A stretch of DNA of 34,780 nt from an uncultured Flammeovirgaceae bacterium. GTDB lineage: Bacteria; Bacteroidota; Bacteroidia; Cytophagales; Cyclobacteriaceae. The stretch spans positions 1-34,780 of the forward strand of contig CAKZYA010000055.1 of NCBI GenBank assembly GCA_937883755.1. The letters run 5' to 3'. How positions within the stretch are numbered: the first letter of the stretch is position 1; each line of letters begins with the position of its first letter. A program made the position numbers and the translations under genes. The notes under the pieces were generated by a model, which searched no databases, was not told the origin of the DNA, and saw only the letters and a program-made list of their open reading frames with translations. Below are positions 415 to 34,326 of this stretch, one piece after another.

Positions 415-480
415 CTACAACAAAAAAGTGAATAAATTAAGTGGCTGAACACCATTACACTTCATATACAAAACGTTAGC
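415..480. repeat. Cassette-like boundary repeat, copy A
   Basis: This segment starts CTACAAC and ends ATATACAAAACGTTAGC, just before the next gene. The right end matches those of the larger palindromes at 28729-28918 and 34179-34306, which share TATAC followed by a CGTT motif. Internal pairing is weak (AAGTGG on the left against CCATTACACTT on the right). The motif GTTAGC at 475-480 is mirrored by GCTAAC at 1064-1069, across the stop codon of the following gene, so that gene is bracketed by inverted hexamers. Confidence 0.4.
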
Positions 481-486
481 TGTCAT

Positions 487-1068
487 TTGATAAGAATACA
501 GTGTTTAAGAATCAGGTCTATCTATGAAGGAACTAAATCTTTTTTAGACGAAAATGAACTAAGAAGAATATTAAAAATAGATCTTGATATAGCGAAAAGA
601 GATGTTAAGAAGTTAATGAGGAAGGGGGCATTAATTATAGTGGCTGCACTTTTTATCGGTCTCGTCTTATTCTTGTTAGGCTTACATTATCATTCATTTA
701 TTCCATTTGGAATTGCTTTGAGTTTAGTGTCATTTTTCTCTTTGATTTATCTCACAATATTGTTCATCAATACGAGGAAAAGATTCAATAAAATTTCTGT
801 TATATATCAAGGATTTATTGATAAATACAAAAACCTGGAAAATGTAAAATACATCTACGATAGTCAGTTGATTAAATTCTTAGAAGAAGAAAAAGAGCAA
901 GATGTTTTTGAATGGCAAAAATTAGAAAGCATTAACAAGGATGTAAACTCAATTTATCTAAAATTTTCCGATTCGGATGAACGAATCTGGATACCTAAGA
1001 AAATGACAAAAGAGGAAGAGCTAGTTGAATTTGAAAAGATGATAAATAGTACTAAAAAAGATAGCTAA
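487..1068 (+). CDS. Two-helix membrane protein of unknown function, 193 aa
   Basis: The protein has a charged N-terminal segment (1-45), two hydrophobic helices (about 48-66 and 72-95) joined by a short loop with His67 and His69, and a highly charged C-terminal tail (about 97-193) rich in Lys and Glu. Both tails are probably cytoplasmic. I do not recognise the family. No ATG lies near the 5' end of the frame, so the TTG at 487 or a GTG nearby may be used; Met44 is a much later alternative that would leave only a short N-terminus before the first helix. The gene is bracketed by GTTAGC (475-480) and GCTAAC (1064-1069, overlapping the stop codon), and so resembles a single-gene cassette. Confidence 0.55.
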   Translation: MIRIQCLRIRSIYEGTKSFLDENELRRILKIDLDIAKRDVKKLMRKGALIIVAALFIGLVLFLLGLHYHSFIPFGIALSLVSFFSLIYLTILFINTRKRFNKISVIYQGFIDKYKNLENVKYIYDSQLIKFLEEEKEQDVFEWQKLESINKDVNSIYLKFSDSDERIWIPKKMTKEEELVEFEKMINSTKKDS

Positions 1069-1207
1069 CAAAATTCAGCCCTTAGCCTATCGAGATGCTA
1101 GATCATTTATTGCTCTAAGTATAAGTAGCAATATGGAAAAAGGAATTAAAAAGTAACCAAGATGGCCAAGAGCTGATCTAGGCGTTACACCTAAATAATC
1201 AAAAATC

Positions 1208-26820: not shown

Positions 26821-26993
26821 CTACGGATACATTTTGCTTTTTAACTGCCCGGCATTATTTTAGGTTGATAGCGGAGCAGCAAAAACTACTTTACTCGGCG
26901 TTATGAAAATGATTGGTGAGTGACTAATTGGGGTACAATCTACTTTCAAAATCCATCCACACAAACTAAATTCAGCCCCATGATATAAGAAAA

Positions 26994-27033
26994 ATAACGG
27001 AGACTGGTCTCCGTTATGCAATTGTTAGCCCTA
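26994..27033. repeat. Cassette-like boundary repeat, copy D, with hairpin
   Basis: ATAACGGAGAC (26994-27004) and GTCTCCGTTAT (27007-27017) form a perfect hairpin, best drawn with a CTGG loop. It is followed by GCAATTGTTAGCCCTA. The end TATGC-AATTGTTAGC resembles the ends of copies A, B and C. TTGTTAGCCCTA (27022-27033) is an exact inverted copy of TAGGGCTAACAA (28723-28734) on the far side of the following gene. Confidence 0.6.
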
Positions 27034-27059
27034 ATTAAAAAAAACATTTCGATAGTTGA

Positions 27060-28725
27060 ATGAATAAAGAACAAATTTTAGAAAGACTAAACGAAATAAC
27101 CTCTAATACAAATTTTATTTATGTGTTATCTGCTATCGTGCTCAAAGATTTTTGTGGGACTTTAAGCGAACTCTCTTCTAAAAATGTCAGAGAAGGTCTT
27201 AATAATAATGAAGTGAAGTTTCTAATGGGGCTTTGGATTAAAAATTGGACAAATGCGCAAGAAACAGACTATGATGAATTAAAAGTATTTGATGAAGTAT
27301 ATAGCTTAATGGAGCAGTTTCATTATACTTTTATGCCAGACCTATCAAAAATGCTTGAAAATCCATCTGAAAGTCAGTTTGACTTCTTTAATAATGGTTT
27401 AATGTTTAAAGAAACTATGTTCTATTCTGGGACTGGTGCTTATGATTATCAATATACGAAATGGGTTACGGAAAAATACAAGTATGATACGGATTGGCTT
27501 TCAAAATCTAAATCGATTAACCTAAGTAAACTTCCCGACTTTTATGACTCTTTAAAGACACTTCAACAAACTAAATTGAATAAACTAAAATTCGATTCGG
27601 AACACACTTTTAAAGAGAAATTACTCGATGTTTTTTGTTTATCTAAAGAAGACATAATTGAAAAAAACGAAGATTTTGAAGGCATTTTAAAAAATTTTAC
27701 CCTTGACATTAAACAACGTCAAAATCAAAACTTTAAAGATGTTGGAGATTTTAATATTTTATCCGAGAAACCGATAATTGAATTAGCTGAAGGAAAGTAC
27801 TTTTTACCAATGCCTTACGATTTATCAGAGGCAATATACGAATCACCTTTTTATTGGATGAATAGCGATAAGAATTATCGTTCCAAAGCTCAATACAATC
27901 GTGGAGAAATTGCAGAAGAAATTACCTATAAAATTATTGAGAAAATTTTTGGTGTTGACAATACTTTTCAAAACTTAATAATAAAGAAGTCTAAAAGTAC
28001 AATGGTTACTGATATAGATATTCTTGCTATAAAAAATGATAAAGCAATTATTTTTCAAGTTAAATCTAAAAAGTTAACTGCTCTTTCTAAAAAAGGTAAT
28101 ATTGAATCAATACAGAGTGATTTTAAAAAAGCCGTAAAAGATGCTTACGAACAAGGATTAACAGCAGCAGATTGTCTTAAGTCATCAAATGATTTTCAAT
28201 TTGTATTAAAATCAGAACCAGATTTTAAATTTGATTTTGATATCAAAAAATCTTTCATCTTTTAAATTTGATTTTGATATCAAAAAATCTTTCATCGTAA
28301 CAATTGTATTAGATGATTATCCCGCAATCACACATCAAACACATATTCTATTAGGAAAGGAATACAAAGAATTCCCTGTAGCGCTTAATATTTTTGATTT
28401 AGAGATTGTAGCAAAATACTTGAACACATCTGAAAAATTTATTGATTATATTGAAAGAAGAATAAAATACAGCCAATATTTCAAAGCAGATAATGAATTA
28501 GGGTTTTTAGGTTTTCACTTAAAAAAAGGACTTCAAAAATTTCCTGATTCTAATATGGTCGCACTAGACAATACTTGGGCTCAGTTTTTCGATAAAGACT
28601 ATTATGGAGAAATTTCTGGAGTTAAAAAGAAACAAGAAAACCTACGAAAGAAAATTGGGAGAAATGAACGTTGTCCTTGTGGTAGTGGAATAAAATATAA
28701 GAAGTGTCACGGAAAAAATAACTAG
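27060..28725 (+). pseudogene. Nuclease-like protein with NERD/PD-(D/E)XK core and C-terminal SEC-C motif, frame broken by a 37-bp duplication
   Basis: Two overlapping frames (27060-28265, 401 aa; 28231-28725, 164 aa) are halves of one gene. A perfect 37-bp tandem duplication at 28223-28296 shifts the frame; removing one copy gives a single 542-residue protein. Residues 1-250 are unrecognised and helical. Residues 280-340 fit a NERD-type PD-(D/E)XK nuclease: RGEIAEE (Glu283, Glu286), TDIDILA (Asp318, Asp320) and FQVKSKK (Gln333, Lys335). The C-terminus GRNERCPCGSGIKYKKCHGK is a SEC-C zinc motif (CxC, then CH). As it stands only the first half with the nuclease core is made; the second frame starts at ATT or a later codon and would be poorly translated. 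The gene is AT-rich and flanked by 12-bp inverted repeats, so it looks acquired. A defence role is possible but unproven. Confidence 0.8.
28223..28296 (+). repeat. Perfect 37-bp tandem duplication causing a frameshift
   Basis: Bases 28223-28259 and 28260-28296 are identical. Both begin TTTTAAATTTGATTTTG and end TCTTTCATC. Since 37 is not a multiple of three, the frame shifts by one, and the first frame stops at TAA 28263-28265. The exact identity suggests a recent event. Slippage or recombination between the copies would restore the frame. Confidence 0.95.
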
Positions 28726-28728
28726 GGC

Positions 28729-28918
28729 TAACAAGGTATAAAAAACATAGGGCATTTGTGCTTAACTGAAAAGTCTGTGAATATTAACAAAGTCCGCTAA
28801 ATATAAAATTTGGCGTTTATAATAGAAAAGATAAAAGCAAAATATTTATATTTAGCTAAGTAATAAACCGAAACGAAAGTGCTTATCACCTGCCCTACGT
28901 TTCTTATACTGAACGTTA
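28729..28918. repeat. Cassette-like imperfect palindrome, copy B
   Basis: The left arm GTATAAAAAACATAGGGCA (28736-28754) and the right arm TGCCCTACGTTTCTTATAC (28891-28909) are inverted copies at 17 of 19 positions. Outside them lie TAACAAG on the left (28729-28735) and TGAACGTTA on the right (28910-28918). The middle is about 136 bases of AT-rich non-coding DNA. The layout mirrors copy C at 34179-34306: outer AAC...GTT, then GTATAARA, then RTAG. It begins 3 bases after the stop codon of the nuclease-like gene, the position where an integron attC site would lie in a gene cassette. Confidence 0.7.
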
Positions 28919-29021
28919 TCATCAATCTGAACCTTTTACGAGCAGCTTTCAACGTTTTGGCAGGGAATACAGCGGAGGATCATTTTCAGCAAGGCAAGAT
29001 GATATGATCCAGGAAAATGAG

Positions 29022-29124
29022 AATTTTCTAGCAAGTCTTCTCCGGCGGTACCGGTCAAACTCGCGTTTGTGCCTCCGTGGCCCGAACGTAGCGACGTTAG
29101 GAAGACTTGAAACTACCGAAAATT
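29022..29124. repeat. Large interrupted hairpin, REP-like
   Basis: AATTTTC (29022-29028) plus CAAGTCTTC (29032-29040) pair with GAAGACTTG (29101-29109) plus GAAAATT (29118-29124). The 60-base loop is GC-richer than its surroundings and contains small palindromes (GGTACC, and AACGT/ACGTT). A separate GGATCAT (28977-28983)/ATGATCC (29004-29010) pair lies just before it. It may be a REP-type repeat or a structured RNA. The remaining part of the 28919-29551 gap has no gene I can support; on the minus strand 29240-29443 is a frame-damaged, hydrophobic possible remnant. Confidence 0.4.
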
Positions 29125-29551
29125 GAGGAAAATTACCCGATATTTTGTAGCTGGATCATAGATCAGGATGTTGATTTAGAAAATGATGAATAGGTCCCTG
29201 CTACCCTGCGGCGAACGATCGCTTATACCTGTATAAACGTCATACCCCGCAGGAAAACGAAGGACAGCGAAAGAAGTGGATAAAAGATTCAGACAAGTCT
29301 TTTCGACAGATTGATTGGAAAAAGAGGATGAAAAAGACATGCTGATAACATCGAGCAACAGCCATTGTACGCAAGCTAAAGACAAAACCCACAAGAGCAA
29401 TGTGTGCGATAGCACTCTTTGCTCTTTTGAGCTGGCCCACCAAAAGAAATTCCCTTTTTCTGTGTTGTCAAATCAGCGTTTTGTGTAAGCGTATTAAAAT
29501 CAAGTAATAGACATTTGAGACGAATTTGAAAAATAATTAACTTAACAAGGA

Positions 29552-30454
29552 ATGTCTGTATATAAAATAGGTTCTATAAGTCATTTGCACAACTTACTAG
29601 GGTTGCCAAAGCCCCAGCATCCACTTATCTCATTAGTAGATGTATCTAAAACCCAAATAACGGAGGAACAGGTAAACGCAAAAGTAATTTATGACTTCTA
29701 CATGGTGTCGCTGAAGGACAAAAGCTGTGGCATGGAGTATGGTAGAAATTCTTTTGACTTTGATGAAGGGATAATGATCTTTACCGCTCCTGGTCAGGTG
29801 TACACCTTTACCAAACCTTACAGACCCGGAGAAATAAAGGGATGGATGCTTTTTTTTCACCCAGATTTGATACGCAACTCACACTTAAGTAATGAAATTG
29901 ACAACTACTCGTTTTTCAATTATGATGTGATTGAAGCACTGCATTTATCGGAAGACGAAGAAAGAACCGTGAATGCGACTGTTGATCAAATAAAAAACGA
30001 GTACCAGCAGCGCATTGATAATCACAGCCAGCGTGTGATTGTTTCCAATATCGAACTACTTCTAAATTATAGCCTCAGGTACTACGAAAGGCAATTCAAT
30101 ACACGCGTCAGTCAGAGCAGAGATGTTATAGCCTTATTTGAAAGGGAACTCAAAAGCTATTTTAACTCACAAAAAAACTTAGAACTAGGCTTACCTGATG
30201 TGCAGTACTTTGCCCATATCTCGCATCTATCTCCTCATTATTTTAGTGACCTTGTTAAGAAAGAAACAGGTAGAACACCCAAAGATCATATCAATGAATA
30301 TGTTATTGAGCTGGCAAAAAACAGATTATTGTCATCTGATCATTCGGTTAGCGGAATAGCCTATGAATTGGGCTTTAACTATCCTCATTATTTTACCCGA
30401 TTATTCAAGTCTAAAACTGGGCAAACACCTGTTGAATACCGCAATCTGAATTGA
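29552..30454 (+). CDS. AraC-family transcriptional regulator
   Basis: This 300-residue regulator has an N-terminal cupin-like sensing half (about 30-170; FDEGIMIFTAPGQVYTFTKP and GWMLFFHPDLI are typical of the Bacteroidetes group) and a C-terminal AraC DNA-binding domain with two helix-turn-helix motifs (about 200-298). The first includes VQYFAHISHLSPHYFSDLVKK and the second the signature of GIAYELGFNYPHYFTRLFKS, followed by TGQTPVEYR. The ATG at 29552 follows CAAGGA. The gene is immediately upstream of an aldehyde dehydrogenase, a short-chain dehydrogenase and a bestrophin gene on the same strand, with inverted TGCACT/AGTGCA sites in the first gap, so it probably controls that unit, likely in response to an aldehyde or alcohol. 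Confidence 0.95.
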   Translation: MSVYKIGSISHLHNLLGLPKPQHPLISLVDVSKTQITEEQVNAKVIYDFYMVSLKDKSCGMEYGRNSFDFDEGIMIFTAPGQVYTFTKPYRPGEIKGWMLFFHPDLIRNSHLSNEIDNYSFFNYDVIEALHLSEDEERTVNATVDQIKNEYQQRIDNHSQRVIVSNIELLLNYSLRYYERQFNTRVSQSRDVIALFERELKSYFNSQKNLELGLPDVQYFAHISHLSPHYFSDLVKKETGRTPKDHINEYVIELAKNRLLSSDHSVSGIAYELGFNYPHYFTRLFKSKTGQTPVEYRNLN

Positions 30455-30457
30455 TTC

Positions 30458-30491
30458 TGCACTTTGTGTTAGCACTCCCGCATTTAGTGCA
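30458..30491. promoter_or_regulatory. Possible AraC-type binding sites upstream of the aldehyde dehydrogenase
   Basis: TGCACT (30458-30463), AGCACT (30471-30476) and the inverted AGTGCA (30486-30491) lie in the 97-base gap between the regulator and the aldehyde dehydrogenase gene. Starts of the two direct sites are 13 bases apart. A possible -7-like ACTTTG at 30508-30513 lies downstream. This is a plausible operator, not a demonstrated one. Confidence 0.35.
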
Positions 30492-30551
30492 AGTTCAAAC
30501 CTGTCAATCGCTACAACTTTGTATTGTAATTAAAAATTTAATCTCAATACA

Positions 30552-32147
30552 ATGACAGCACAAGAAGCTTATAACCAATTAGACCCAAAGCACTGGGTAA
30601 AAACATCAGTTAGTGAGAGACTATCCTTACTGAAGCAAATTCAAGAAAACTTAAAAACGCATGCAAATTCACTTGGGGCAACAGACTCAAGGATGAAAAA
30701 CGACCTGATAGGTCAAAATGCAGTAAGTAAAGCGGAAGGAATGGGTGGAACAGTAATGCCCATGGCCAATACGCTCATGGGAATCACTAAACTGTTTGAG
30801 AGTCTCTTAAAAGGGAAAATGCCTCAGCCCAATTCTATTAAGGAAATCGATAATAATCTATTTGAAGCCCATGTGTTTCCAATACATTCAAAAGACAAGT
30901 TGGCAGCAGGAAAACAAAAGGGATACCTACATATTGAGGGAAAGCCCACTCAAATAAACCCGCTGGATAAACCTGCTGGAGTAATAGCCATCTCTGGTGC
31001 TGGAAATTACAGTTCTTCCATTGAAATGGCAATGGCACTTTTTTTAGAAAATAAGGCCGTTGTGCATAAACCCCATCAATTGAATGAAGCAACTGATGTG
31101 ATTTGGGAAAAAGTCTTCGCACCGCTTATTGAACGCAAAGCCCTTGCTTTTTGTGATGCTGACCAAGGCAGGGCACTGTCTCAGCTTGAGGGCCTCCATT
31201 CCATCTATTTCACCGGTTCTACAGAAGTGGCACACGCCATTCAAAATGCAGCAAAAGCTCCTTTGGTTGCCGAATGTGGTGGGAACAATCCTTGCATCAT
31301 TGTACCCGGTAAATGGTCAGAAAAAGACATAAAAAGGCAGGCCATTCAAATAGTTTCAGCGGGTAAACTGAATGGAGGTGCCATCTGCGGAAGACCTCAA
31401 ACCATTATTACTTCAAAAAATTGGGATCAAAGAGAACAATTCCTCAACGAACTGCGCAAAGCAATTACCAAAGAAACATTTGCCTGCTGTTCGTATTACC
31501 CAGGCGTAGAACAAACCAGTGAAGCATTTCTTCAGCATCAACCTTCGGCTGAAATCTTAAAGCCCGAAAATGCGAAGTACAACAAAAGTGACTATGTGCT
31601 TATTCCTAACCTTTCCGAAGATGATTTTGCCATCAAGAACGAAGCATTTTGTCAAATATTCGGTGAGATTCCTTTAGACACTTCTGCAGATACCTATGGT
31701 TTCTTAACCAAGGCAACTGACTTTTGCAACAACAAATTACTTGGTTCCTTGGGCTGTATGATATTAGTGGACAACAAAACGCTTAAGGCTAACGAAGCAA
31801 GAGTTCATCAGGCAATACGAGATCTTAATTACGGAGGTATTGCTGTTAATGATATTCCACCAAATATCTGGCTAAATGGCTATTTAACCTGGGGAGGTTG
31901 TGGAGAGTCAACCGCTGATTTTATCTCTGGTGTGGGAAATTTTGGAAATCCGTTGAACTTCGAAAATGTCAAAAAATCTGTCCTGATCAATGATTTTAAT
32001 GCCACCAGTTTTGAATTCACGAATAGAAAGCGGGTAGAGCATTTGGTTGAAAATGTATCTTATTTCAATACTGACCAAAGCTGGGGACATTTTTTGAAGT
32101 TGGCAGGACAAATGACCATTGATAACCTAAAGGGAAAAGACTTTTAA
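30552..32147 (+). CDS. Aldehyde dehydrogenase family protein
   Basis: This 531-residue NAD(P)-dependent aldehyde dehydrogenase is longer than the usual 480-500. The catalytic set is recognisable: Asn152 in SGAGNYSSS, general base Glu241 in VAECGGNNPCII, and nucleophile Cys279 in LNGGAICGRPQ. The N-terminal 90 residues (to about KGKMPQPNSIK) are helical and include GATDSRMKNDLIG, which differs from the standard ALDH N-terminus. The sequence HKPHQLNEATDVIW replaces the usual KPSExTP loop, so cofactor preference is unclear. It starts 97 bases after the AraC gene and ends 17 bases before the short-chain dehydrogenase. It probably oxidises an aldehyde made by, or fed to, its SDR neighbour. Confidence 0.9.
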   Translation: MTAQEAYNQLDPKHWVKTSVSERLSLLKQIQENLKTHANSLGATDSRMKNDLIGQNAVSKAEGMGGTVMPMANTLMGITKLFESLLKGKMPQPNSIKEIDNNLFEAHVFPIHSKDKLAAGKQKGYLHIEGKPTQINPLDKPAGVIAISGAGNYSSSIEMAMALFLENKAVVHKPHQLNEATDVIWEKVFAPLIERKALAFCDADQGRALSQLEGLHSIYFTGSTEVAHAIQNAAKAPLVAECGGNNPCIIVPGKWSEKDIKRQAIQIVSAGKLNGGAICGRPQTIITSKNWDQREQFLNELRKAITKETFACCSYYPGVEQTSEAFLQHQPSAEILKPENAKYNKSDYVLIPNLSEDDFAIKNEAFCQIFGEIPLDTSADTYGFLTKATDFCNNKLLGSLGCMILVDNKTLKANEARVHQAIRDLNYGGIAVNDIPPNIWLNGYLTWGGCGESTADFISGVGNFGNPLNFENVKKSVLINDFNATSFEFTNRKRVEHLVENVSYFNTDQSWGHFLKLAGQMTIDNLKGKDF

Positions 32148-32164
32148 TATAAAATCACGATAAA

Positions 32165-32986
32165 ATGAATAAGACAATATTAATCACAGGATGCAGCACC
32201 GGAATTGGTCGTATAACTGCAAAATACTTTCAGGAAAAAGGATGGAACGTAGCTGCTACTGTCCGCTCAAACCCTGATCAAGACACTGAATTAAACACAT
32301 TGGAAAATGTATTTGTCGTAGCATTGGATGTTACCAAAGAAGATACTATTAAAGATGCTGTAACAAAAACGGTTGAGCGATTTGGAAAAATTGATGTATT
32401 GCTAAACAATGCTGGTTATGGTTCTTATGGTATTTTAGAAGCTACTCCCGAAAAGGCAATCCGAATGCAGTTTGATGTCAATGTAATCGGGACTTTGTTG
32501 GTTTCTAAGCATGTCATTCCATATATGCGTAAAGCAGGAGAAGGAACAATCATCAATATTTCTTCAATGGGCGGTAAGATAACTTTACCGTTGGGTACGC
32601 TTTATCACGGTTCTAAGTTTGCAGTTGAAGGATTATCAGAAGCTTTGTCTTTTGAATTAGAAGCCATTGGTATTAAAGTGAAAATGATTGAGCCAGGTAT
32701 GATTAACACCAATTTTGAAGATACGTTAATACAGGGTTTGAACATAGACCAAAGCATGACAGAGTATGGAGAATTTCTTCAAAAGGCCATGAAAGGTATG
32801 CAACAATCAGGAAGTAACAGTTCTGAACCTATCATTGTAGCTGAAACAATATTTGAAGCCGCTACCGATAGGAAAAACCAATTGAGGTATATCGTAGGTC
32901 CAGACGCTGAACAACTTATCGCAGCGCGAAAACAAATGGATGACACAGCATATATGGCCTTGATGAAGCAACAAATGGGATTGTAG
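32165..32986 (+). CDS. Short-chain dehydrogenase/reductase
   Basis: This is a 273-residue classical SDR with cofactor motif TGCSTGIG (8-15), an acidic patch after beta-2, NNAG (81-84), catalytic Ser133 or Ser134, and Tyr147-x-x-x-Lys151 (YHGSK). The length and the C-terminal extension (about 190-273), rich in Met and Gln, are typical of the retinol-dehydrogenase-like/oxidoreductase group with NADP preference (Arg34 after beta-2). It interconverts an alcohol and a ketone or aldehyde of unknown identity. It is 17 bases after the aldehyde dehydrogenase, so the two are likely translated from one message and may work in sequence on one substrate. Confidence 0.93.
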   Translation: MNKTILITGCSTGIGRITAKYFQEKGWNVAATVRSNPDQDTELNTLENVFVVALDVTKEDTIKDAVTKTVERFGKIDVLLNNAGYGSYGILEATPEKAIRMQFDVNVIGTLLVSKHVIPYMRKAGEGTIINISSMGGKITLPLGTLYHGSKFAVEGLSEALSFELEAIGIKVKMIEPGMINTNFEDTLIQGLNIDQSMTEYGEFLQKAMKGMQQSGSNSSEPIIVAETIFEAATDRKNQLRYIVGPDAEQLIAARKQMDDTAYMALMKQQMGL

Positions 32987-33043
32987 TTAAGAATCAAGCC
33001 AAAACTGTTAAGTATATTTTAAAGGAGATTACTTAAAACAATT

Positions 33044-34078
33044 ATGATTGTAACCAAAGGCATAAATTTTAGTAGTTTGATCACTTGGACTGGACACCAT
33101 GCCTTATGGTTGCTGTCTTTTATGGCTACCATTGCTTCATTATATTACTTCCAAATTATTTCACTAAACATTCCCTGGCTACCTGTTTCTGTCATTGGTA
33201 CAGCAGTGGCATTTTATGTAGGTTTTAAAAATAATCAGGCATACGATAGAATGTGGGAGGCTCGCAAAATTTGGGGCGGAATAGTCAATGACAGTCGTGC
33301 TTGGGGAATGATGGTGGATGGATACGTAACCAATCGTTTCAAAGAAAAGAAGGTAAGTGAATCGGAAATCCAAAAAGTTAAAAAACGATTAATATACCGG
33401 CACATCGCCTGGCTTTATGCCCATAGAAGTCAACTTTTGGTTGCTACACCTTGGGAGCATATTAGTCAAGGTGGACATACAGCAAGAACTGCGAAAATGT
33501 ATCAGAAAAAATTCGGTATAGGGCTGTTAGACGATGAAGTCACAAGAACGGAGCTTAAATTATTTTTGCCCACTGAAGAACACGACAGGCTGGTTTCCAA
33601 TGTCAACACGGCAACTCAAATGATTAATGAACAATCAAGAGATTTAATCAAGCTAAGAGCGCAAAACTTTATAGACGACTTTCGTCATATGGAAATGGGC
33701 AATATCCTTAGGAGTTTTTACGAACTGCAAGGCAAGAATGAGCGAATTAAAAAGTTTCCATTACCACGTCAGTATGCCAATATGAGTCGGTATTTTGTGG
33801 GAATATTCATTTTGCTTTTACCCTTTAGTATGATACCAGAGTTGATGAAGTTGGGCGATTGGGGTATATGGCTTTCTATTCCAATTACTGCATTGATAGG
33901 TTGGGTGTATGTTATGATGGAGGTAGTAGGCGATTACACAGAAAATCCATTTCAAGGGATGGCGAATGATATTCCTATGATGTCCTTGTGTAGAGTAATC
34001 GGAATAGACCTTAGAGAATTGCTCGGTGAATCAGATTTGCCTCCAAATGTAGAAGCAAAAAATGGGGTGTTGATGTAG
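33044..34078 (+). CDS. Bestrophin-family anion channel-like protein
   Basis: This 344-residue inner-membrane protein has helices at about 17-38, 44-62, 250-265 and 270-290, and the bestrophin hallmark FKNNQAYDRMWEARKIWGGI (61-80), followed by NDSRAWG. Near the C-terminus come EVVGDYTENPFQGMANDIPM and LCRVIGIDLRELLGE, both typical of bacterial bestrophin homologues (previously UPF0187), which form pentameric ion channels. The length is slightly above the usual 290-310 because of a longer cytoplasmic loop around residues 150-200. It is the last gene of the unit, 57 bases after the SDR. Its link to the oxidoreductases is unclear; it may balance charge or export an acid product. Confidence 0.9.
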   Translation: MIVTKGINFSSLITWTGHHALWLLSFMATIASLYYFQIISLNIPWLPVSVIGTAVAFYVGFKNNQAYDRMWEARKIWGGIVNDSRAWGMMVDGYVTNRFKEKKVSESEIQKVKKRLIYRHIAWLYAHRSQLLVATPWEHISQGGHTARTAKMYQKKFGIGLLDDEVTRTELKLFLPTEEHDRLVSNVNTATQMINEQSRDLIKLRAQNFIDDFRHMEMGNILRSFYELQGKNERIKKFPLPRQYANMSRYFVGIFILLLPFSMIPELMKLGDWGIWLSIPITALIGWVYVMMEVVGDYTENPFQGMANDIPMMSLCRVIGIDLRELLGESDLPPNVEAKNGVLM

Positions 34079-34178
34079 ATTTGTCCTACTATCAAAGCAC
34101 ATTACAACCCTCGTTCCTGTGGTTGCAAAGAGCTTTCTCATCAACTCTAAAGGTAATCAGAATAAAAAAAGCCTGCGT

Positions 34179-34306
34179 ACAACATTGTATAAAAGCAATA
34201 GCGTTTTGAGAGTAATCTCGAGGCGTTTTCGTATCTAATTAAGTATATTGCTTTCCGAAAAGTTGGAGCATTTTAATCCGCTACTGCTCTTATACTGGAC
34301 CGTTGT
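34179..34306. repeat. Cassette-like imperfect palindrome, copy C
   Basis: GTATAAAAGCAATAGCG (34187-34203) and CGCTACTGCTCTTATAC (34279-34295) are inverted copies at 15 of 17 positions. Outside them lie ACAAC on the left (34179-34183) and its match GTTGT on the right (34302-34306). The middle is 75 bases of AT-rich DNA with a local AGAGTAATCT palindrome. It shares its layout and its outermost words with copy B and precedes a small orphan gene. The bases 34079-34178 before it contain no feature that I can name. Confidence 0.7.
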
Positions 34307-34326
34307 CGTGTATTAAAAAAAGACAA

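Follow-up and report, generated by a model that had tools for sequence, protein, structure and literature searches.

We analyzed a window of 34,780 nucleotides from an uncultured Flammeovirgaceae bacterium (positions 1 to 34,780 of CAKZYA010000055.1, contig C55 of a genome of 7.6 Mb in 75 contigs), in which a preliminary description had reported four palindromic elements, A to D. It is very probable that elements B and C and, less strongly, A and D serve as the recombination sites in a gene-cassette system of the Bacteroidota that resembles integrons. The system has several features in common across the loci compared: (i) a cassette is the segment that runs from the TT-R following the G in the GTTR of one site to its own end site, (ii) this end site is an imperfect palindrome framed by YAAC and GTTR, (iii) a XerA/integron-like tyrosine recombinase is found at the 5' end of the arrays examined, mostly beside an attI-like word, and (iv) the array content changes exactly at G|TT. 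The recombinase would excise cassettes as circles and use a folded single strand, most probably the bottom one, as the substrate for their insertion. A mobile gene-cassette system of this phylum, resembling attC sites while departing from their core rule, had been proposed in the preliminary description, and the site family, the arrays and the phylum-wide distribution described below support that proposal.

Site B, a predicted long-type cassette recombination site, occupies positions 28730-28917 of the forward strand, with AAC at 28730-28732, arms at 28736-28753 and 28892-28909, and GTT at 28915-28917. Site C, a predicted typical recombination site, occupies positions 34181-34304 of the same strand, with AAC at 34181-34183, arms at 34187-34203 and 34279-34295, and GTT at 34302-34304. 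Both elements are present where they had been placed, with the AAC/GTT words and inverted arms ascribed to them; the arm count given for C (15/17 paired) is right, whereas for B it should read 16/18 Watson-Crick pairs with two A.C mismatches, not 17/19. The predicted fold of site B has a z-score of -3.41, and none of 200 shuffles was equally good. A 91% identical element was found in one related genome (G106) and an 87.6% identical one in another (G003), where the copy is located approximately 1.2 kb from a broken recombinase, present as a fragment. The stretch directly 5' of site C (34095-34201) recurs together with the start of the site in G060, G057 and G064 at 76-81%, and partly in G006.

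The site family was described starting from the right-end words. An exact right-end pattern has three matches in the source genome, and it was found at 27 places in 23 of 118 genomes, compared with 11 for the reversed control pattern. With two mismatches allowed, the pattern gave 7+5 matches in the source genome versus 10+12 for the reversed control; in view of this absence of excess, a covariance model was used in place of patterns. This model, R1, was built from 19 of the 27 copies, the long-type copies (B and L016) and those with no clear left arm (L015, L018, L021 and L034) or a poor one (L014 and L017) being left out. In the 19 aligned copies, 96.7% of arm cells are paired versus at most 59.9% for slid partners; the rows were picked for having both arms, which favours this figure but not the double-sided changes, observed at four pairs in 19 cells. 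Site C, one of the 19 copies behind the model, matches R1 at 34171-34316 with 109.6 bits, and site B has a partial match at 28789-28929 (38 bits). In a set of 104 distinct sites, 15.2 of 20 arm positions are paired, compared with 10.7 when halves are mixed. The sites are therefore imperfect inverted repeats with conserved structure. The core words are uniform: GTTR is present in 197 of 200 distinct right words and YAAC in all 144 left words, GTT and AAC being the anchors.

The attC sites of integrons are recombined with the bottom strand folded. The same strand was compared here using the 94 of the 104 distinct sites that have at least 13/20 arm pairs. As written on the top strand, their arm mismatches comprise 194 A.C versus 38 G.T; since a top-strand A.C mismatch is a G.T on the bottom strand, the bottom strand is likely the folded one, and it folds better in 72 of the 94 sites. 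These sequences point to the bottom strand as most likely the one that is folded.

A long array of such sites was found in Persicobacter psychrovividus NBRC 101262, a member of the same family as the source organism, on the circular plasmid pPP2 (NZ_AP025294.1, contig C3 of genome G052; 404,592 bp). It contains 113 sites at E <= 1 within 100 kb, all on one strand after seven overlapping opposite-strand echoes were dropped, with a median spacing of 723 bp (range 512-2583). Of the resulting 112 cassettes, 74 contain an open reading frame (ORF) of at least 80 amino acids, which in 72 of them is on the array strand; in these cassettes the ORF is preceded by a median of 23.5 bp and followed by 14.5 bp, and the median ORF share of the cassette body is 0.90. 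When ORFs of at least 40 amino acids are considered, 78 of the 112 cassettes have their largest one on the array strand. Thus the array is co-oriented and composed of mostly single-gene cassettes, as in integrons. The 112 cassettes fall into 68 similarity clusters (the largest with 14 and 10 copies), and copies of the same cluster are scattered.

In the last 44.6 kb of pPP2, 29 of 39 annotated genes encode hypothetical proteins. The 59 distinct cassette proteins include Pfam matches to TPR, DUF4272, DUF4279, DUF7674, redoxin, SUFU, the transposase-type families DDE_3 and rve_2, and one TNT domain, with no Pfam family in more than three members; a PADLOC scan assigned one member each to PD-Lambda-5 and PDC-M38A. 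Some cassettes, about 580-690 bp in length and with no ORF reaching 80 amino acids, recur up to 14 times in the array (303364-403538). The accessible part of the paper on the Persicobacter plasmids mentions no integron, integrase or cassette. Another array is perhaps present on a 395-kb plasmid of Persicobacter sp. JZB09 (CP012862.1), which encodes a 54% identical recombinase followed downstream, within 20 kb, by two sites, one strong and one weak.

An integron cassette begins with a TT-R word, and the end word to which this is complementary directly precedes the attC of that same cassette. To apply this rule, the heptamer after GTT was compared with the heptamer before the next AAC, the latter reverse-complemented; AAC was readable in 112 and GTT in all 113 of the pPP2 sites. 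The 111 neighbouring pairs on pPP2 agree at a mean of 5.87 of 7 letters, 88% of them at five or more, compared with 2.55 for 12,434 non-neighbour pairs (10.8% at five or more) and 2.48 for the two words within one site. Among the 90 neighbouring pairs of another 30 array stretches, 63 agree at five or more letters, versus 7.3% of 12,987 cross-locus pairs; a separate count of such neighbouring pairs gave 59 of 86. The cassettes compared are therefore bounded at G|TT, with a start word complementary to their own end word, and this complementarity, as read from the sequences, is the signature of integron cassettes.

A search with the integron integrase profile in 13 array-bearing genomes revealed tyrosine recombinases near the array ends, and in none of the 13 was the TIGR02249 cut-off passed. 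The recombinases have two forms. The long form (364-556 amino acids) is located upstream of the array and is co-directional with it, whereas the short form (about 280 amino acids) is divergent from the array in two loci, L124 and L125, and not divergent in G133. Among rows picked by eye, all 23 sites near a long form with an open frame of at least 340 amino acids are downstream and on the same strand, and 19 of 25 sites near a short form are upstream and on the opposite strand; five of the six exceptions come from two short ORFs of G386, located at the distal end of an array that belongs to a long form, and one from a 183-amino-acid fragment. In G133, at least 16 places on contig C1 contain a similar short-form recombinase with an open frame of 280 amino acids, as if it were a self-mobile element. 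The recombinase has only partial matches in phage records, and none of the 50 records reached 80% coverage of the query.

For 11 of 16 loci, a start word fitting the first detected cassette at 6-7 of 7 letters lies 44-348 nt past the recombinase stop codon, and by eye most of these attI-like sites end in a short inverted repeat. One junction is exact: in a 6,664-bp stretch that comprises backbone and recombinase and reaches to GATATAAACAAG|TT, the congeneric loci of G052 and G161 are 98.7% identical, and beyond it they have different cassettes. An attI-like insertion point is thus present beside the recombinase, and the preliminary description's suggestion that gene content should vary between strains at the same site holds both for these two loci, which differ after G|TT, and for a window gene that recurs as an exact unit (see below). 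Its further expectation, a tyrosine recombinase co-occurring with the sites, is also borne out, and this recombinase adjoins them.

The layout and the cassette rule are so similar to those of integrons that the arrays might be true but diverged integrons, with IntI and attC, in the Bacteroidota. Reviews indeed count the phylum among those bearing integrons (PMC8618304 and PMC9668308, both in part), and in the modelled recombinase (L155; pLDDT 83, pTM 0.50) VchIntIA (2a3v) is the second-best match in the Protein Data Bank (PDB), after XerA (5hxy). TIGR02249 also matches, at 176-231 bits in the 10 recombinases scanned. Against this, all 10 are below its 265-bit cut-off and match in two stretches, the genome matches stopping near profile position 181 and restarting near 235; the nine IntI comparators gave 373-489 bits in a single stretch. 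NF040815, the profile for site-specific tyrosine recombinases/integron integrases, was passed at its cut-off by four of the 10 and also by the L155 recombinase. In a tree whose backbone is unresolved and whose bootstrap had not settled, the nine IntI form one group with weak support (82/70), the Bacteroidota recombinases fall outside it, and the long recombinases do not form one group. The attC core words are rare in the sites, as GTTRRRY was observed in 12 of 200 right words and RYYYAAC in 13 of 144 left words, both anchored on GTT and AAC. Classic attI sites are not palindromic, unlike the inverted-repeat ends seen by eye in most attI-like sites here. Judged by their sequences, these recombinases are not IntI: they are devoid of the IntI insertion, and an additional N-terminal domain is present in the long form. 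In the accessible part of PMC8138268, an integron-like subgroup is described in which conservation of the insertion is incomplete, and relatives of these recombinases may for that reason belong to this subgroup. Overall, diverged true integrons are an unlikely explanation.

The extra domain of the long form is partly supported as HARP by profile and structure comparison. HARP (PF07443) was detected at E <= 0.01 in four of 16 long recombinases scanned, and over the Pfam cut-off in one, from a Spirochaetota metagenome-assembled genome (MAG; L181). Folded alone (pLDDT 78), the domain gave no PDB match at E <= 0.001, and its weak matches include the XPB DRD (E 0.18-0.44) and the SMARCAL1 HARP (E 1.1). 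This domain, HARP-like in a few proteins, may read the hairpin. Long recombinases with a similar N-terminal domain were also observed in MAGs labelled as Firmicutes (L153) and Undinarchaeales (L161), in addition to L181; the domain was called HARP by Pfam in L181 and by eye in the other two, and no R1 sites are nearby in any of the three, although little downstream DNA is present.

A scan of related genomes with the covariance model, proposed in the preliminary description as a check, showed the sites to be widespread. R1 matches were found in at least 143 of 195 relatives at E <= 0.01 and in at least 148 of 395 genomes sampled from the phylum at E <= 0.001; as the best 16 (relatives) or 8 (phylum) candidates per genome were scored, these counts are lower bounds. 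In a control at E <= 0.01, matches were present in 10/10 recombinase-bearing Bacteroidota versus 0/30 genomes from other phyla, several of them small. Of the 395 genomes, 90 have both site and recombinase, 58 the site only, 30 the recombinase only and 217 neither (odds ratio 11.2). In G162, three sites with identical scores at 1063786, 1069368 and 1074948 of contig C1, 5.58 kb apart, are probably a tandem triplication.

Plasmid records searched for the recombinase yielded matches in Bacteroides ovatus (NZ_CP081918.1) and Parabacteroides distasonis (NZ_OY725747.1), in which the recombinase precedes co-oriented genes including the immunity genes SMI1/KNR4, Tdi1, Imm26 and PoNe/PoNi. This arrangement is known as rAID (recombinase-associated acquired interbacterial defence), which is defined by short genes of one orientation with conserved motifs between them, together with a tyrosine recombinase (PMC12247911, in the part available, where the word integron is absent). 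The gut branch of the system is already known under this name. The intergenic stretches of these arrays contain hairpins framed by YAAC and mostly CC|ATTA. The cassette rule gave 7, 6, 7, 6, 6 and 7 of 7 letters for neighbours in P. distasonis (non-neighbours: mean 3.8, 10/43 at five or more); 7, 7, 6, 7, 1, 6, 2, 6, 2 and 2 in B. ovatus (2.8, 7/111), where some sites are misparsed and the low scores (1, 2, 2, 2) were kept as obtained; and 6, 6 and 4 in an unannotated Phocaeicola massiliensis record (3.2, 2/13). R1 gave no matches at E <= 1 in the three rAID loci (L273, L274 and L275). Over 366 columns, which include the N-terminal part, the recombinases of B. ovatus and Seonamhaeicola aphaedonensis have 42% identity. 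On the basis of these three arrays, which are few, rAID appears from sequence features to be a branch of this cassette system.

Two other explanations are very improbable. According to the first, the sites represent RNA elements transcribed at gene ends (hairpins, terminators or small RNAs), and the arrays arose by tandem duplication. The location of the sites directly 3' of genes agrees with this, and the better folding of the bottom strand would permit G.U pairs. However, the start and end words covary even though the hairpin does not include them and as much as 2.5 kb may separate them, a single array holds 68 similarity clusters among its 112 cassettes, the attI junction is exact, a recombinase stands at the array start, and no Rfam family was found in the window, in L073 (part of the pPP2 array) or in the rAID locus L274. 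Transposon-type repeats flanking genes by chance, either REP palindromes moved by RAYT or ends of small transposons, would account for the mismatched palindromes, the RTAG words and the dispersed singletons of the source genome, but would leave unexplained why the arrays keep one orientation and mostly a single gene between sites, why the cassette rule holds, and why a tyrosine recombinase co-occurs with the sites in a constant arrangement.

Recombination sites of a cassette system being the preferred reading, the window itself contains one well supported cassette by sequence comparison (27024-28917) and probably a second from 476 onwards. The first begins at site D (26994-27026, forward strand), a hairpin ATAACGGAGACTGGTCTCCGTTAT-GCAATT|GTT with GTT at 27024-27026, which by eye is similar to the attI-class hairpins adjoining integrases; its fold has a z-score of -3.03, with 1 of 200 shuffles equally good. 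The cassette body D-B (27024-28732, forward strand) extends from GTTAGCCCTA to TAGGGCTAAC, with start and end words complementary at 7/7 letters. When 26900-29000 was compared by BLASTN with the fetched loci, the match in G126, of another genus of the same family, covered 27024-28731 only (74.6% over 1,720 columns), beginning with the G of GTTAGCCC that follows D and ending with the AA of GGGCTAAC that precedes B. Neither flank of the D-B cassette matches in G126, where the unit is preceded by a different hairpin with the same terminal GTTAGCCC. Since this match, a single comparison, is confined to the predicted ends, the D-B interval is likely a mobile cassette.

The cassette gene (27060-28725, forward strand) has NERD-like and SEC-C regions (Pfam E 3.4e-4, just under the cut-off, and 1.6e-9) and is split into ORFs 27060-28265 and 28231-28725, a short tandem duplication near 28230-28290 disrupting its frame; the homologue in G126 has an open frame of 543 amino acids. 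Matches to this gene were found in four of 195 genomes, the source genome counted, and at E <= 1e-15 there was none in the same-genus genomes G001-G003.

Site A (415-477, forward strand) is a degenerate attC-like element ending in TATACAAAAC|GTT, with GTT at 475-477; it is one of the matches to the right-end pattern with two mismatches, of which the window has 3 versus a shuffle mean of 0.98. The probable cassette A (476-1069, forward strand) starts with TTAGCTGTC and ends with AGCTAAC (1063-1069), its start and end words being complementary at 6/7 letters after GTT, and contains an orphan ORF (487-1068) whose sole Pfam match, FANCL_d2, is under the cut-off (E 0.0053). Sites A and D were not detected by R1 and have only the right-end words in common with B and C, as originally noticed; each precedes a gene with a complementary 3' word.

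The statement that all four elements lie beside orphan or defence-like genes is only partly accurate, as the genes between B and C encode an AraC regulator, an aldehyde dehydrogenase, a short-chain dehydrogenase and bestrophin. A single cassette spanning B to C was considered and found no support: with two stretches per genome scored, G190 is the one relative reported to join the first three genes, bestrophin is not matched there, and bestrophin occurs elsewhere alone. The cassette demonstrated spans D to B. A very short site is possible at 29341-29366 (GATAACATCGAGCAACAGCC|ATTGTACGC); it was spotted by eye and may be due to chance. Its left word is complementary to the right word of B at 6/7 letters and its right word to the left word of C at 7/7; the right word has A for G, as in rAID, and no hairpin was seen. 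Among 10 window proteins scanned against Pfam, no orphan immunity cargo of the rAID type, directed against type VI secretion, was found. The absence of an integrase reported for the window holds, with none on contig C55 among the matches listed by the integrase profile searches, but not for the genome, in which a short-form recombinase of 280 amino acids is encoded at the extreme start of contig C36 (96-938); its divergent array would extend past the contig end. The window cassettes, remote from any integrase, would resemble the solitary attC sites of integrons.

Several observations weigh against recombination sites of a cassette system. The fold of site C is by itself not significant (z -1.15, 29 of 200 shuffles equally good), and it is the recurrence of the elements that raises B and C above chance. 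The sites of the source genome are dispersed, with 16 matches at E <= 1 on 12 contigs, two of them being the two strands of site C, and its recombinases of this kind are on other contigs, C27 and C36. The G126 match ends at the end word and the gene there is without site B, so gene and site are separable. On pPP2, the largest ORF is on the opposite strand in 18 of 112 cassettes, and 16 have no ORF of at least 40 amino acids. Outside pPP2, 27 of 90 neighbouring pairs agree at fewer than five letters, and 11 more have no readable word; low scores are expected where an intervening site was missed. Five of the 16 recombinase loci (L155, L149, L127, L132 and L121) have no near attI word, the best word being farther off, and earlier cassettes or missed sites may intervene. 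Finally, the recombinase was not detected in 58/148 site-bearing genomes, nor the site in 30/120 recombinase-bearing ones; part of this may reflect insensitivity, because the best eight site and four integrase candidates per genome were scored.

Taken further, the comparison makes it somewhat probable that the Bacteroidota have their own integron-like system, which evolved separately from IntI, is phylum-wide on chromosomes and large plasmids, and includes rAID as a specialised immunity-gene branch; its XerA-like recombinase, through the HARP/XPB-DRD-like domain of the long form, may recognise a G.T-mismatched hairpin, the attI being folded as well. Integron surveys report little in this phylum, in contrast to the sites found here in 148 of 395 sampled genomes and, at 113 places, on one plasmid. 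According to the accessible part of the IntegronFinder 2.0 paper, only In0 elements were previously seen in Bacteroidetes, and it adds one complete integron, in Salinibacter ruber (PMC9024848); the lists of integron-bearing phyla in PMC8618304 and PMC9668308 include the phylum without detail in the parts available. In the accessible text of the literature searched (PMC9024848, PMC9668308, PMC8618304, PMC8138268, PMC10645730 and PMC12247911) there is no account of the system outside rAID, and subscription papers may hold earlier ones. If the proposal is true, a gene-capture system has been largely overlooked in a phylum of soil, marine and gut bacteria, integron behaviour can be reached by routes other than IntI, the assembly of rAID immunity arrays in gut Bacteroides gets a concrete, testable answer, and the cassettes, mostly of unknown function, are a gene pool that can be mined.

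Compared with known systems, the proposed one is most similar to integrons in its co-oriented arrays of mostly single-gene cassettes, palindromic sites with structure conserved more than sequence, insertion at G|TT beside an integrase, complementary start and end words, and solitary sites without an integrase. It differs in a recombinase without the IntI insertion and, in the long form, with an extra N-terminal domain, in YAAC/GTTR core words without the RRRY part, in attI-like sites that mostly look like hairpins, and in a long recombinase that reads in the array direction. The rAID arrays have a homologous recombinase, co-oriented short genes, conserved intergenic hairpins and largely the same cassette rule, whereas their sites are short (about 45-60 nt), with C|ATTA instead of C|GTTR, and their cargo consists of immunity genes. 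Xer proteins resolve chromosome dimers at dif. Xer/XerA is the closest enzyme family by NF040815 and by PDB match, while the recombinases described here sit at cassette arrays. Clusters of attC sites lacking integrases (CALIN) and solitary attC sites, like those in the window, have no neighbouring integrase; the sites here, in contrast, are not of the attC core type.

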